A program made the translations under genes and the position numbers. Below are positions 5,918 through 10,865 of a stretch of 12,473 bases of DNA, piece by piece. How positions within the stretch are numbered: position 1 is the stretch's first letter; the number at the start of each line of letters is the position of its first letter. This stretch comes from Nitrospinae bacterium RIFCSPLOWO2_12_FULL_45_22 (lineage in GTDB: Bacteria > 2-12-FULL-45-22): contig MHDQ01000007.1 of NCBI GenBank assembly GCA_001803565.1, positions 1 to 12,473 on the forward strand, in the 5' to 3' direction. Under the pieces are notes generated by a model. It ran no database searches. It was not told the origin of the DNA and saw only the letters and a program-made list of their open reading frames with translations.

Positions 5918-6355
5918 ATGGTATATAATCACCACTTTGTTGCTCAGGATGACAAAATTTCTCCAGAGGTGGCGATGAAAAAGATTCGAATACTCCTAAC
6001 CAAGATCGGTTTGGATGGCCATGATAGAGGGGTAAAGGTAGTGGCGGCCGCCTTGCGCGAGGCGGGGATGGAAGTAATTTATACCGGGCCCTGGCAAACC
6101 ATAGATAATGTGGTAGAGACGGCCTTGCAAGAGGATGTGGATGTTATTGGTATAAGCAGTTTGGCTTATGACCATCTATTGGTGCCTAAATTAATGGAAT
6201 GCCTCAAACAGAAAAGGTCAGACGGCCCTAAAGTAATAGTTGGTGGTGTCATTCCCGATCAGGATATGTCTCTCTTAAAAAACAGTGGGGTGGCGGCTGT
6301 ATTCCCGGCTGGTACAGCCCTGGAGCAAATCGTTCACTTCGTAAAATCTCAGTAA
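5918..6355 (+). CDS. Cobalamin-binding domain protein (methylmalonyl-CoA mutase C-terminal type)
   Basis: The protein is a single B12-binding domain. GLDGHDRG (31-38) contains the D-x-H-x-x-G motif, whose histidine (H35) coordinates cobalt in base-off, His-on cobalamin. VIGISSLAYDHL matches the S-x-L segment, and IVGGVIPDQD with a later FPAGT matches the G-G and G-x-G-T contacts to the nucleotide tail. Stand-alone domains of this kind are the small subunit of split acyl-CoA mutases (methylmalonyl-, ethylmalonyl- or 2-hydroxyisobutyryl-CoA type) and rearrange acyl-CoA carbon skeletons with a large catalytic subunit. No large subunit or MeaB chaperone is adjacent. The true start is probably the ATG at 5975 (MKKIRILL), which has GAGGTGG just upstream and where homologues begin; the ATG at 5918 adds 19 unrelated residues but also has a GAAGAGAG site. 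Confidence 0.88.
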   Translation: MVYNHHFVAQDDKISPEVAMKKIRILLTKIGLDGHDRGVKVVAAALREAGMEVIYTGPWQTIDNVVETALQEDVDVIGISSLAYDHLLVPKLMECLKQKRSDGPKVIVGGVIPDQDMSLLKNSGVAAVFPAGTALEQIVHFVKSQ

Positions 6356-6450: not shown

Positions 6451-7560
6451 TTAAAGCTTGAAGCTTTCTAAGAAGGCCTGAACCCGCGTCTTCATCTGCC
6501 CCAGGCTGGCCATGCTATATTCTCGCTCTAGCTTCAATATAGGTAGGCCCAGTGGCTCCAGCCCTTTCTTGATCACCGGGTAGGCGCTGCCATGTAAATC
6601 ACAAAACTTAATGGTCTCATATATTACTCCCTCTACCTTAAAAAGCTCAATTAATTGGGTCAGGTGTTCTATCCGGTATTGGGCAGGGTGCATACGGGGG
6701 CAAGGGGTGCGAGTCAAGTAGCGCTTAGCTAACCCTTCTATAGGTTCGAGGCTCGTATCTACCAGGTCCCAAAAATAGCGGCTCCCGTTACACAAGTCAT
6801 CAGTGACTACTACTGCGCCTAACTCTTCAATGAGGTGTAAGTACTCAGGATCATCCAGCTCACTACCCAGCACTAAGAGCCGCACGCTATCTTGCGTCAG
6901 GCGAGGAGGATTAGCCTCTAGCTCATCCAGGTATTCCTGTAATATCAGGTTAAATTCATCCTTGGGCATAACCATCCCGGCTAGTACAATCTCCAGGGTT
7001 TCTGCACCAGTTATTAGGGGTGGATGAGAACGTCTCAACTGGTAGAGCCGCCTCAGAAGCTGTCGGCTCTGATTATATACATTAATAGCCTCCCTTATAG
7101 CCTCGGGAGGTATCTCCTGACCCAAGTATTCCTCCAGCCTCTCCTTGAGCCGCTTTATCTCCATCTGGAAAAATGCCAGGGTAGATGGTGTGGCTTTGCA
7201 TGGGAGGCTGAGGATATGGGTAAAGGGAGTGGCCATATAATTTTCCCAGACATCATATAAGCGGCGGATATGGTCGCAACTATTACAGGCTAACAAGCCA
7301 TCAAGCTGGCTATATCCATCTCGGAAGCCTTGCTCGAAGCAACTACGTACAAATGAGCAGATATTGCTATATAGGTGAGCATCGGCTGCCGGGGTCTCGC
7401 CCGGTTTCCCGAAGACCTTTACCGGTAATATCCCTGCGGCATAGACCAATTCCTCTGGAGCATAGGTGCAGATGTAACCAAAGGTCTTTAGCCCTTTGCT
7501 ACGTCGCTCCTGGATTGACTCCATTCGTCTCTCAAATATTTGGTTAAAATTCTCCCTCAT
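6451..7560 (-). CDS. 2-hydroxyacyl-CoA dehydratase / benzoyl-CoA reductase family protein (HGD-D), smaller subunit
   Basis: This family binds a [4Fe-4S] cluster with three cysteines and removes water from 2-hydroxyacyl-CoA, or reduces aromatic CoA esters, by an ATP-activated one-electron step. The 369-residue protein has APEELVYAAGILPV (34-47), SNICSFVRSC (65-74), NSCDHIRRLYD (93-103), DDLCNGSRYFW (254-264), KFCDLHGSAYP (318-328) and a closing REYSMASLGQMKTRVQAF (346-363). C68 or C74, C95 and C320 sit where cluster ligands fall in the family (inference by position). AGGAG lies eight bases before the ATG. The gene lies 201 bases after its larger paralogue on the same strand, so they may form the two halves of a heterodimer, as in HadBC, HgdAB or BcrBC. 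Substrate cannot be told from sequence; a double-cubane (DCCP-like) reductase role is also possible. Confidence 0.88.
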   Translation of the reverse strand: MRENFNQIFERRMESIQERRSKGLKTFGYICTYAPEELVYAAGILPVKVFGKPGETPAADAHLYSNICSFVRSCFEQGFRDGYSQLDGLLACNSCDHIRRLYDVWENYMATPFTHILSLPCKATPSTLAFFQMEIKRLKERLEEYLGQEIPPEAIREAINVYNQSRQLLRRLYQLRRSHPPLITGAETLEIVLAGMVMPKDEFNLILQEYLDELEANPPRLTQDSVRLLVLGSELDDPEYLHLIEELGAVVVTDDLCNGSRYFWDLVDTSLEPIEGLAKRYLTRTPCPRMHPAQYRIEHLTQLIELFKVEGVIYETIKFCDLHGSAYPVIKKGLEPLGLPILKLEREYSMASLGQMKTRVQAFLESFKL

Positions 7561-7598
7561 AATTTATTCTCCTACTGTCTTGATCCTGAATTATACAC

Positions 7599-7714
7599 CG
7601 CAAAAACGCAAAGAGGATAATGGGTTATTGGGTCATTAGGTGACTCTGTTATTGCGCCATTATTTAATAACCTAATAACCTATTGAGGTTCTTTGCGTCC
7701 TTTGTGTTTCTGCA
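7599..7714. repeat. Imperfect palindrome between the two dehydratase genes (element B)
   Basis: GCAAAAACGCAAAG (7600-7613) is roughly inverted in CTTTGCGTCCTTTGTGTTTCTGC (shortened here; 7691-7713). Inside, GGTTATT (7623-7629) pairs exactly with AATAACC (7674-7680), and ATTAGG (7635-7640) with CCTAAT (7671-7676). TAATAACC is also repeated in tandem at 7665-7680. The element fills most of the gap 7561-7761. It has no long ORF and may hairpin within the polycistronic RNA. Confidence 0.55.
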
Positions 7715-7761
7715 GTTATGAATAACGATTGACAAAACTTAAGCCGGCATAATTCGGTTCA

Positions 7762-9006
7762 TTAGTTAGTAATTACCGTGGCGAAATATTCGTTTATCTT
7801 CTCCTTCATTTCGTTACCAGAGGTTATACGGGCATCGCAAATGTCTCCTCCTATTAACAGTGGAGCGATCCCAAGCTCCTTTTTCAAGGCATCCACTACA
7901 ATACGGTTAATACCACACATCTGCTTGCAGCCGAAATGGCAGAAATAGATAGCCCCATCAATCTGGCAGTCTTGCCACAGTTTAACCAGCCGGTTGAGAG
8001 ACTGGTTAAAGGACCCATAGATAAGATCGATCCCGCCAAAGCTCAGCATGCGTCTGGCCACATTTTCAAAAGGATCATTGGTAGATTTATATACCCCATC
8101 CCAGGGTTTGAGCCCTAAACCATCAGCTACTATTACGGCACCATGTTTCTTCTCTAGCCAATCGAGCAAATTCATCTCAGAGAAAGGAAACCCACCCATC
8201 CAGGCTAAGCGATGCCGCTCTTCGACCAGGGGCCCTTGACCCTTAGTTGCCCGCTCCTGGCCTTCCTCGTAGAGGGCCTTCAAGGCTTTCAGCGTATTAG
8301 GCTGTCCTTCGCAGCAGATACGCAGGGCCATCGTAGATGAGGCCTCACGGCTCCTTAATGGTGAAGGGGTTATTTTTCGCAAATCTTGAATCTTTTCTAC
8401 CAGCTCTTGCGATTGCCTGGATATAGCAAGGCTTTGTTCCAGGGTACTTAGGTCTAATTTTTGTCCGGTATGCTCTTCCAGGAACCTTACCAGCCCTTCA
8501 ACCTCCGCCTTCAAGTAGGCTACCGCTTCTTCTCCTACGCTGTAGGGATAATCAAAAAAATAGGTCGGGCAGCCAAAGAGGTCACTAATTACTTCAAACA
8601 TCATCACATTAGAGTCACAAGGGGTAGCTACCCCTACAATAATGTCGGGGGGCGGTAGTATCCCGGCCTTGACCATGCCTACCACTGCCCGGTTAGGCGA
8701 GCACCCCTCGGTAGAAAAGCCCACCCCAGCCCCTAAATCCAGATACTCGTAACCGGTCTTCTGGGCTAAGACTTGAATAGCATATTGATCCGGGCCAAAG
8801 TGGACAATATCCATTGCCCGGAAGATCTCTAACGGGGCAATAGGGCTTATCCAGGCCAGGGGTTTCCCACGTTCTTTGGCATGCAGAACCTCGCTTAGAT
8901 AATCCGTCATGGTTTCTATATAATATTCCTCGCTTAAGTTAGTGGGGTGGGTACGGCGAAAGGCTAACCTCTTCTCAAACCAAGCTACCATCTGCTCTAA
9001 TCTCAT
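7762..9006 (-). CDS. 2-hydroxyacyl-CoA dehydratase / benzoyl-CoA reductase family protein (HGD-D), larger subunit
   Basis: The 414-residue protein belongs to the same Fe-S family as the gene at 6451-7560. Recognisable segments are ISPIAPLEIFRAMDIV (54-69), TEGCSPNRAVVGMVKAG (99-115), ATPCDSNVMMFEVIS (127-141), a central helical insert around 160-260, YFCHFGCKQMCGINR (354-368) and the hallmark LIGGDICDARIT (384-395). Cysteines 102, 130 and 356 or 360 are likely cluster ligands by position; C364 and C390 are extra. A longer reading from 9084 adds 26 atypical residues, but AGGAGGA seven bases before the ATG at 9004-9006 settles the shorter start. It is transcribed ahead of the smaller paralogue. 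No HgdC-like ASKHA activator ATPase is nearby. Alternatives to a dehydratase are a benzoyl-CoA reductase subunit or a double-cubane-cluster protein. Confidence 0.88.
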   Translation of the reverse strand: MRLEQMVAWFEKRLAFRRTHPTNLSEEYYIETMTDYLSEVLHAKERGKPLAWISPIAPLEIFRAMDIVHFGPDQYAIQVLAQKTGYEYLDLGAGVGFSTEGCSPNRAVVGMVKAGILPPPDIIVGVATPCDSNVMMFEVISDLFGCPTYFFDYPYSVGEEAVAYLKAEVEGLVRFLEEHTGQKLDLSTLEQSLAISRQSQELVEKIQDLRKITPSPLRSREASSTMALRICCEGQPNTLKALKALYEEGQERATKGQGPLVEERHRLAWMGGFPFSEMNLLDWLEKKHGAVIVADGLGLKPWDGVYKSTNDPFENVARRMLSFGGIDLIYGSFNQSLNRLVKLWQDCQIDGAIYFCHFGCKQMCGINRIVVDALKKELGIAPLLIGGDICDARITSGNEMKEKINEYFATVITN

Positions 9007-9036
9007 AGCTGTTCCTCCTGGTACGGGAAAAATGTC

Positions 9037-9045
9037 AGTATAGCA
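9037..9045 (-). promoter_or_regulatory. Extended -10 promoter for the dehydratase-family genes
   Basis: On the minus strand TGC-TATACT (TATACT at 9037-9042) forms an extended -10 box about 30 bases before the ATG at 9006, giving a short leader of roughly 24 bases. No good -35 box stands at the right distance, as is usual for TGn-type promoters. Confidence 0.4.
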
Positions 9046-9151
9046 TACTTTGCTCAGAGAGATTTGAAACTGGCAAAGGGACAAATAAAAAGCAAAATTT
9101 AACTAAAAATAACGTGATAAAACCGATCTGTCAATTATCCTTTTCCTATCT

Positions 9152-9165
9152 TCCTCTGAAGAGGA
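9152..9165. promoter_or_regulatory. Inverted repeat in the divergent intergenic region
   Basis: TCCTCT (9152-9157) and AGAGGA (9160-9165) form a near-contiguous inverted repeat between the divergent genes at 9006 and 9294. It could be an operator serving either side, but its arms are short and nothing in the window encodes a regulator for it. Confidence 0.2.
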
Positions 9166-9229
9166 TGCCAATTAGCTATAGTAAATAGTAAAAAGTAGCA
9201 GTTGGACAGCCAGTAAAATTATGCTAGGC

Positions 9230-9235
9230 TATAAT
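9230..9235 (+). promoter_or_regulatory. Candidate -10 box for the 265-residue protein gene
   Basis: A perfect TATAAT lies 59 bases before the ATG at 9294. The nearest -35-like hexamer, TTGGAC (9202-9207), is 22 bases away, longer than the usual 16-18, so the promoter is incomplete as read. Confidence 0.3.
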
Positions 9236-9293
9236 GCAGGTTTAAGTAGTTTTTCATAGATATGTTAGGAATATATAAAGAGGAGACTTAGAG

Positions 9294-10091
9294 ATGGCAG
9301 ATATACTACGAAGATTATTGAACAGACTTTCAAACTATATTATAGAGTATAAAGTCCTCTCTGGTGATGAACTTATGGGCAAAATATCAGAAGAGATAGG
9401 CATCCTGGATGAGCAAGAACAAAGAGAGCTGCAAGATTTATTAGAGAGTGATGCTAAGCATAAGATATTTCATGGGATAATAGGAGAAGAAACCGGCCTT
9501 TCTGTCTTCTGTCCAGACCTGCATGTCAAGATCAACTATCTGGGGGAGATATTCTTCTGTCCTCCAACTCATAAGTATATGCAGGCAGAACTCCATAAAG
9601 GGTTTCTACGCATTGCCGAGCAGAGAGGCCAAAGCCTATTGGGCGAGGTGGAGGAGGTTCTTTCTCATTTCTTGAGGCAATTAGAGTACCGCATTTCTCC
9701 TCAAGAGGGGCAGTTAGCTGGTTCGTACAAAGAATTAATCGCCCATAAGGATCAATACCGCTTGAGACTTTATCTATTCTTTTCTATAGTCACGGCTCAA
9801 GAGTTCCTGGATAATATTCCCAAGAAAGACGAGGAGCAGGTTATCATAGTCCCTTCAGAAAGGACACCCGCACCATTTATAAAATTCCTTAGGGAGTCAG
9901 AGGATAAGGCCAGGGATAAAGGTCTTTCTGTTTGGGTAGTAGATATAGAAAATAGAGCTATTAATCCCTTTCTAGGGGTTCCTGTGGACAGAGAAATATG
10001 GGCCCATTTTACTGACCCAGAAGCCTCCCTTAGGGCCATTCAAATGTGGCGCAGTTCTGGGCCATTTAGCCCTTCAGATGGGGATTTCTAA
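9294..10091 (+). CDS. Unrecognised 265-residue protein
   Basis: I do not recognise this family. The first 65 residues are helical and charged (NRLSNYIIEYKVL, EQEQRELQDLLESD). Residues 72-94 carry the only two cysteines in a paired setting, FCPDLHVKINYLG then FFCPPTHKYM (C73 and C89, each followed by proline, with histidines 77 and 93), which could bind metal or an Fe-S cluster or simply cap a beta hairpin. A hydrophobic helix lies at about 156-173. The C-terminal part alternates strand and helix (EQVIIVPSER, GLSVWVVDIENRAINPFLG), suggesting a Rossmann-like or nuclease-like fold, unproven. AGGAG at 9281-9285, eight bases before ATG, supports the start. There is no signal peptide. Its last 18 bases overlap the end of the convergent CooC-like gene. 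Confidence 0.75.
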   Translation: MADILRRLLNRLSNYIIEYKVLSGDELMGKISEEIGILDEQEQRELQDLLESDAKHKIFHGIIGEETGLSVFCPDLHVKINYLGEIFFCPPTHKYMQAELHKGFLRIAEQRGQSLLGEVEEVLSHFLRQLEYRISPQEGQLAGSYKELIAHKDQYRLRLYLFFSIVTAQEFLDNIPKKDEEQVIIVPSERTPAPFIKFLRESEDKARDKGLSVWVVDIENRAINPFLGVPVDREIWAHFTDPEASLRAIQMWRSSGPFSPSDGDF

Positions 10092-10865
10092 TTTAGTAAG
10101 TATTTTCTGGGTGGCCCGAATTGCTGGCGAATCTTCTGGGAGCCCTATTAATGGCTTGCCTGCCCGATCGTACTGAGTGATATTGTTATCTTCGGGGATA
10201 ATGCCCAGCAGTTCTATCCCGATTTCCTGGGCCTTTTGCTGGAATTCCTCTTCTATATTACCAGTAGCCCTATTGAGTACTAAGCAGATACGCTTGAAAT
10301 GTATCTCTAACTTCTCCGCCAGACCCTTAATCAACCTGGCAGTTTCCAATCCCCGGTGAGTAGGGTCGGTAACAATTACCATAATATCCACACTCCGCGT
10401 CGTCCTTCGGCTCAGGTGCTCTAAGCCGGCCTCACAATCAATGATAGTCAAATCAAAGTTATTAGAAATTGTCTCTATAGCGTGTCGGAGAATATCATTT
10501 ACCAGGCAATAGCATCCTGGTCCTTCGGGTCTTCCTATAGCTAATAGAGATATTGTAGGGGCCTTAACTAACATATCCTTTATCTGATAATCTATTATCA
10601 TATCCGGGGGTATGTCATAACTTGGGGCACTACTTGGACCCTGGACCAATTCTTCCCTGAGATCCCCAATAGTCTTCCTCGCCCTTAAACCTAACGCTGG
10701 TGGGAGGCTGGTAGCAGGATCAGCATCTATAGCCAATATATGTCGGCTGTTTTTGCTCAGTAATTTAATCATCATAGCGGAAAAGACGGTCTTGCCGGTT
10801 CCTCCCTTACCAGAAACAGCTATAATTGTTCCTTTTTCACTTTTATTCCCTTTATCAAAGGCCAT
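10074..10865 (-). CDS. cooC: CooC-like maturation ATPase (MinD/NifH/SIMIBI class)
   Basis: CooC proteins are dimeric ATPases that help insert nickel into carbon monoxide dehydrogenase; relatives serve other Fe-S or corrinoid enzymes. The 263-residue sequence shows the deviant Walker A SGKGGTGKT (18-26, signature K20 and catalytic K25), switch I IDADPATSLPPALG (46-59), the paired cysteines of EGPGCYCLVN at C118-x-C120 that bridge the dimer and bind metal in CooC, switch II IIDCEAGLEHLSRRT (141-155) with D143, and the base-recognition N198 region of LVLNRA. Length is normal for CooC. GGGGAGG lies just upstream of the ATG. No CO dehydrogenase gene is in view; the neighbours are dehydratase-family Fe-S proteins transcribed on the same strand beyond the convergent 265-residue gene. 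A role in activating those instead is speculation. Confidence 0.88.
   Translation of the reverse strand: MAFDKGNKSEKGTIIAVSGKGGTGKTVFSAMMIKLLSKNSRHILAIDADPATSLPPALGLRARKTIGDLREELVQGPSSAPSYDIPPDMIIDYQIKDMLVKAPTISLLAIGRPEGPGCYCLVNDILRHAIETISNNFDLTIIDCEAGLEHLSRRTTRSVDIMVIVTDPTHRGLETARLIKGLAEKLEIHFKRICLVLNRATGNIEEEFQQKAQEIGIELLGIIPEDNNITQYDRAGKPLIGLPEDSPAIRATQKILTKLEIPI

Follow-up and report, generated by a model that had tools for sequence, protein, structure and literature searches.

The 12,473-nucleotide window, which is the entire contig C7 of a 3.67-Mb assembly (321 contigs, 85% complete), probably holds two separate modules: a heterodimer of HGD-D proteins that is activated in trans, and a convergent gene pair encoding a CooC-like ATPase and a DUF6834 protein. 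In other genomes CooC-type ATPases are encoded beside HGD-D proteins, in an operon of Bacillota and two further lineages that, as far as we could find, is apparently undescribed. What is shown directly concerns the protein families, the distribution of the genes and their order, the trees, and the cluster ligands as read from alignments. A sequence-only reading of the same DNA had reported an HGD-D pair near a CooC-like ATPase with no ASKHA activator in the window; all of these genes were confirmed (Table 1), and its interpretation overall is partly supported. Among the genomes searched, G001 is the only order mate of the window genome, and the remainder share just the domain with it.

Table 1. 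Features of the window and related loci in its own and other genomes
Feature	Position or locus	Strand	Evidence
HGD-D beta (BzdN/DCCP-like, double-cubane type), 369 aa	6451..7560	-	PF06050 E 4.3e-100; 6/6 [8Fe-9S] cysteines
HGD-D alpha (HadB/BzdO-like), 440 aa as listed	7762..9084	-	PF06050 E 6.8e-60; 3 [4Fe-4S] Cys ligands
DUF6834 / AF_2093-like protein, 265 aa	9294..10091	+	PF20755 E 2.6e-14; 2PH7 profile match E 6.3e-57
CooC-like ATPase, 263 aa	10074..10865	-	PDB 3kje match E 2e-20; Walker A; CxC
Stand-alone B12-binding subunit, methylmalonyl-CoA mutase type	5918-6355	+	
Open frame of >1400 residues with two ASKHA domains	L071 1-4269 (C225)	-	
TGA-bearing HGD-D alpha paralogues	L029 near 6918 (C53); L030 near 4010 (C148); L042 near 5490 (C231)		
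Recurrent set: CooC, HGD-D beta, HGD-D alpha, ASKHA, truncated ACS-beta	L266 7320-12502; L267, L268, L275-L278, L181/L291, L124		

The two HGD-D genes are separated by 201 bp on the minus strand, and the starts of paralogues suggest that alpha probably begins at the ATG at 9006. The DUF6834 gene, placed on the plus strand between the HGD-D pair and the CooC gene, is divergent from alpha and convergent with CooC, with an 18-bp overlap of the 3′ ends; the pair is thus not contiguous with CooC on one strand. Weak promoter-like sites are found 5′ of both minus-strand units. The B12-binding subunit gene converges on beta from the other side.

Both subunits score far over the PF06050 cut-off, with an HGD-D domain in each. 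In an alignment that took in BzdN, DCCP, HadB, HadC, MbdN, and MbdO, beta has all six cysteines of the [8Fe-9S] double cubane, as seen against BzdN and DCCP, and alpha conserves all three cysteines that bind the catalytic [4Fe-4S] cluster (cluster types assigned after PMC11971306). With six cysteines in beta and three in alpha, the pair matches class I benzoyl-CoA reductase in its cluster layout. Like BzdNO, the catalytic dimer of that enzyme (PDB 8s02; PMC11971306), it is a heterodimer of two HGD-D subunits with this distribution of cysteines, but no bzdPQ activator is encoded alongside. Among solved chains, the nearest match of beta is BzdN (E 1.4e-59), and that of alpha is HadB (E 3.5e-23).

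By the available tests, however, the window pair is not a benzoyl-CoA reductase, because the equivalog scores fall far under the cut-offs for bzdN (200.6 against 453.8 bits) and bzdO (33.9 against 448.6 bits), and His131 and Glu65 of BzdO align with Asn and Asp in alpha. The 2-hydroxyisocaproyl-CoA dehydratase HadBC (PDB 3o3m), which provides the nearest solved chain to alpha, differs in that some of the double-cubane cysteines are missing from HadC, and the window pair scores under the HadB and HadC cut-offs. DCCP (PDB 6eno) shares the six cysteines with beta, and its family NF040772 is the best NCBIfam match of beta, but DCCP is a homodimer, whereas beta is encoded with a different alpha subunit. 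Beta also scores under the NF040772 cut-off (241 versus 350 bits). The double-cubane part of the earlier suggestion is supported for beta by its six cysteines. The neighbors of sister HGD-D pairs include genes for 3-hydroxyacyl-CoA dehydrogenase, short-chain dehydrogenase, and enoyl-CoA hydratase, with which a CoA-thioester substrate is compatible; the precise thioester is not named by them.

A profile search found no ASKHA gene in the 12,473 nt of the window. Elsewhere in the genome, PF01869 ASKHA matches occur on seven contigs, so that an ASKHA activator, as expected for the BCR/HAD family, is present in the organism. The genome carries 67 PF06050 matches spread over 41 contigs, four of which also have a PF01869 match, and three contigs (C249, C51, and C225) encode ASKHA without HGD-D. 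Some linked activators may be cut off because the contigs are short. Most HGD-D pairs of the genome show no local activator, which makes activation in trans the simplest reading and means that it must be common; the missing ASKHA gene in the window is no puzzle. The sequence-only reading had suggested a possible separate activation arrangement without ASKHA, and had named an HgdC homologue elsewhere in the genome among the findings that would speak against it; such ASKHA genes do occur, and the ASKHA-free reading is not supported. ASKHA is also encoded in at least seven loci where CooC and HGD-D occur together, which argues against such a route.

Three further observations concern this gene complement. 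The lineage is rich in HGD-D, the order mate G001 having 29 matches in 1.5 Mb. A single open frame on C225, a contig with no HGD-D match, encodes two ASKHA domains. In addition, three HGD-D alpha paralogues of the same genome have an in-frame TGA exactly at the codon for the first Cys that binds the catalytic cluster, which suggests that selenocysteine may occupy this position.

The ATPase has the deviant Walker A motif (GKGGTGK) and the CxC motif (as GCYC) of the CooC family. In Carboxydothermus CooC, the CxC is a binding site for Zn or Ni where the two subunits of the dimer meet, and no [4Fe-4S] site is described for it (PMC6006190). Walker A, CxC, and overall family are common to the window protein and to CooC/AcsF, the Ni-insertion ATPase of CO dehydrogenase (CODH) and acetyl-CoA synthase (ACS), but the window copy has no adjoining CODH and falls in a distinct branch, some members of which are HGD-D-linked. 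Neither CODH nor ACS is encoded with CooC in the window. CODH is encoded at two loci of the genome, as CooS on C312 and as an archaeal-type CdhA on C157, and a separate CooC accompanies each of them; the window CooC is therefore a third copy, 46% identical to the one beside CODH/ACS on C157. CO dehydrogenases are thus present, as the sequence-only reading had considered, but since each locus has its own CooC they do not simply account for the window copy. In this bacterium, the C157 locus, partly read by eye, groups archaeal-type CODH/ACS genes with CooC and with genes resembling those of formylmethanofuran dehydrogenase.

The C-terminal part of the 265-residue protein matches PF20755. The protein alone matches residues 141-240 of 2PH7, and a profile of it with six relatives matches residues 5-243 (E 6.3e-57). 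By these matches it is the product of a real gene and a full-length relative of Archaeoglobus AF_2093 (2PH7, DUF6834). A search of genome contigs with the protein sequence gave no match, and across 386 genomes PF20755 matched in its own genome and in 0 of the 385 others sampled around the window. Relatives emerged only in a set of 25 genomes picked mainly for carrying a related CooC, five of which encode DUF6834 (two Archaeoglobaceae, Methanothrix, Methanophagales, and the Myxococcota metagenome-assembled genome [MAG] G387). In G387, the C-terminal end of the DUF6834 gene converges on a CooC gene whose product is 65% identical to that of the window, and the overlap is again 18 bp. The convergent pair is a conserved unit in two phyla. 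The contig of G387 stops at the DUF6834 gene, and an HGD-D pair may lie beyond it. In one Archaeoglobaceae genome, a relative adjoins C1-pathway genes and not CooC.

The CP...CPP cysteines of the 265-residue protein, to which the sequence-only reading had drawn attention, are present in the window but are not conserved among relatives: Ser takes the place of the first Cys in a Methanophagales relative, and both cysteines are absent from the Methanothrix relatives, so a conserved metal site was rejected. The predicted structure of the protein alone has a mean pLDDT of 40 and was set aside.

To view the neighborhoods of CooC in other genomes, we took the best CooC matches from 376 genomes, 80 named loci, and 384 genomes belonging to the same order as one Clostridiales MAG. 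G033 has the order HGD-D beta-alpha-alpha-CooC, all on one strand. At locus L181 of the Clostridiales MAG, ASKHA, an HGD-D pair, and CooC are followed by a metal-sensing repressor, and in G310 the order is HGD-D, molybdopterin enzyme, HGD-D, ASKHA, CdhC-like protein, and CooC. Nine more Bacillota loci contain both CooC and HGD-D, most of them as CooC-HGD-D-HGD-D with ASKHA and a small CdhC-like protein; in L271, CooC and the HGD-D pair lie on opposite strands about 2.4 kb apart. The recurrent set (Table 1) is thus found mainly in Bacillota and also in G310, although some loci show fewer than all five genes. The loci with ASKHA, at least seven in number, are L181, G310, L266-L268, L276, and L277, and its frequent presence argues that CooC adds to ASKHA and does not replace it. 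Alignment of these small CdhC-like proteins with acetyl-CoA synthase beta extends as far as the first cluster-motif cysteines, after which the proteins end; CxxCx5C is kept in all of them and the later CGC in none. DUF6834 was rejected as a stand-in for this small partner, as it gave no HMM match. These locus counts are not frequencies, because similarity to CooC decided what entered the sample.

Phylogenetic analysis of 82 CooC rows placed the CooC of the window and that of G387 in one 21-row clade together with every HGD-D-linked copy (SH-aLRT 89), and a smaller tree recovered the same branch as a 10-row clade with support of 98/95. Adjacency to HGD-D required 4 changes on the CooC tree when the window was excluded and 5 when it was included, and none of 500 label shuffles gave fewer than 9; L271 was scored as adjacent, and the number of changes was the same when it was omitted. 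The open-access literature on HGD-D with CooC, on COG1775/COG3640/COG1924, and on DUF6834 yielded no description of the link, and a 2026 study of CODH context leaves dehydratases unmentioned.

The association between CooC and HGD-D proposed from the window recurs in other genomes, but the HGD-D proteins of the window itself fall outside the clade of the CooC-linked ones. In the subunit trees, the CooC-linked HGD-D proteins form one clade (beta, 18 rows, SH-aLRT 99; alpha, 17 rows, SH-aLRT 100). The window alpha and beta belong to another clade, together with paralogues from their own genome and G001 (the beta set also includes one G033 protein). No CooC was found near the sister HGD-D pairs on the fetched stretches, and in the neighborhoods seen, other genomes do not keep the order of the four window genes. 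About 4% of the assembly is no more than 1 kb away from an HGD-D cluster, and with three CooC genes in the genome, one chance neighbor is unsurprising. Because the pair lies outside the CooC-linked clade in both trees and forms no operon with CooC, the adjacency is probably coincidental. Gene order elsewhere thus supports CooC and HGD-D as partners, while for the window genome we lean to the opposite answer.

Several points count against two separate modules. The window CooC lies in the branch that holds every HGD-D-linked CooC of the sample; both CODH loci have a CooC of their own, which leaves the third copy without an evident CODH client; an HGD-D pair may lie beyond the end of the G387 contig; and the assembly is fragmented and incomplete. 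It is possible, if rather unlikely, that CooC is a dedicated accessory ATPase that serves the window pair in metal loading or cluster assembly, with ASKHA encoded elsewhere providing the electrons. Members of the same CooC branch adjoin HGD-D in G033, the Clostridiales MAG, G310, and the nine Bacillota loci, and the few changes on the CooC tree agree with this, but the clade of the window pair, the absence of an operon, and the lack in the window of the ACS-like partner typical of many CooC/HGD-D loci all argue against it. A tentative proposal along these lines, which we think improbable, places the window CooC early in an HGD-D-dedicated branch and has it act with the neighboring pair; in Bacillota and elsewhere, this branch would be part of the undescribed set, in which CooC may load a metal site and ASKHA/HGD-D may drive the reduction of that site at very low potential. 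That CooC replaces ASKHA as the electron-injecting activator of the pair is very improbable: it is the sole ATPase next to the pair, but the genome has ASKHA genes, at least seven CooC/HGD-D loci carry ASKHA too, and the CxC is a known Zn/Ni dimer-interface site and not a described [4Fe-4S] site (PMC6006190).

For the favored arrangement of two separate modules, we infer trans activation, the substrate class, and the client of CooC as follows. The alpha/beta heterodimer, judging from its conserved ligands, would hold an [8Fe-9S] double cubane in beta and a three-Cys [4Fe-4S] cluster in alpha. Electrons would most likely be driven into it by an ASKHA ATPase whose gene lies on another contig or elsewhere outside the window, and the predicted activity of the heterodimer would most likely be the reduction or dehydration of a CoA thioester. 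The CxC at the dimer interface of CooC would most likely bind a metal (nickel), which CooC would load into a client, probably one of the CO dehydrogenases of the genome or its acetyl-CoA synthase.

Collectively, the window adds one more double-cubane heterodimer to a genome with an unusually large HGD-D set, and the wider result is a recurrent link of CooC-type ATPases with HGD-D enzymes, which the Bacillota operons make testable. A functional link would mean that certain members of the benzoyl-CoA-reductase family need a metal-loading ATPase, or that they act as ATP-driven reductants for a nickel-type site. Either outcome would join two separately treated branches of difficult anaerobic chemistry.
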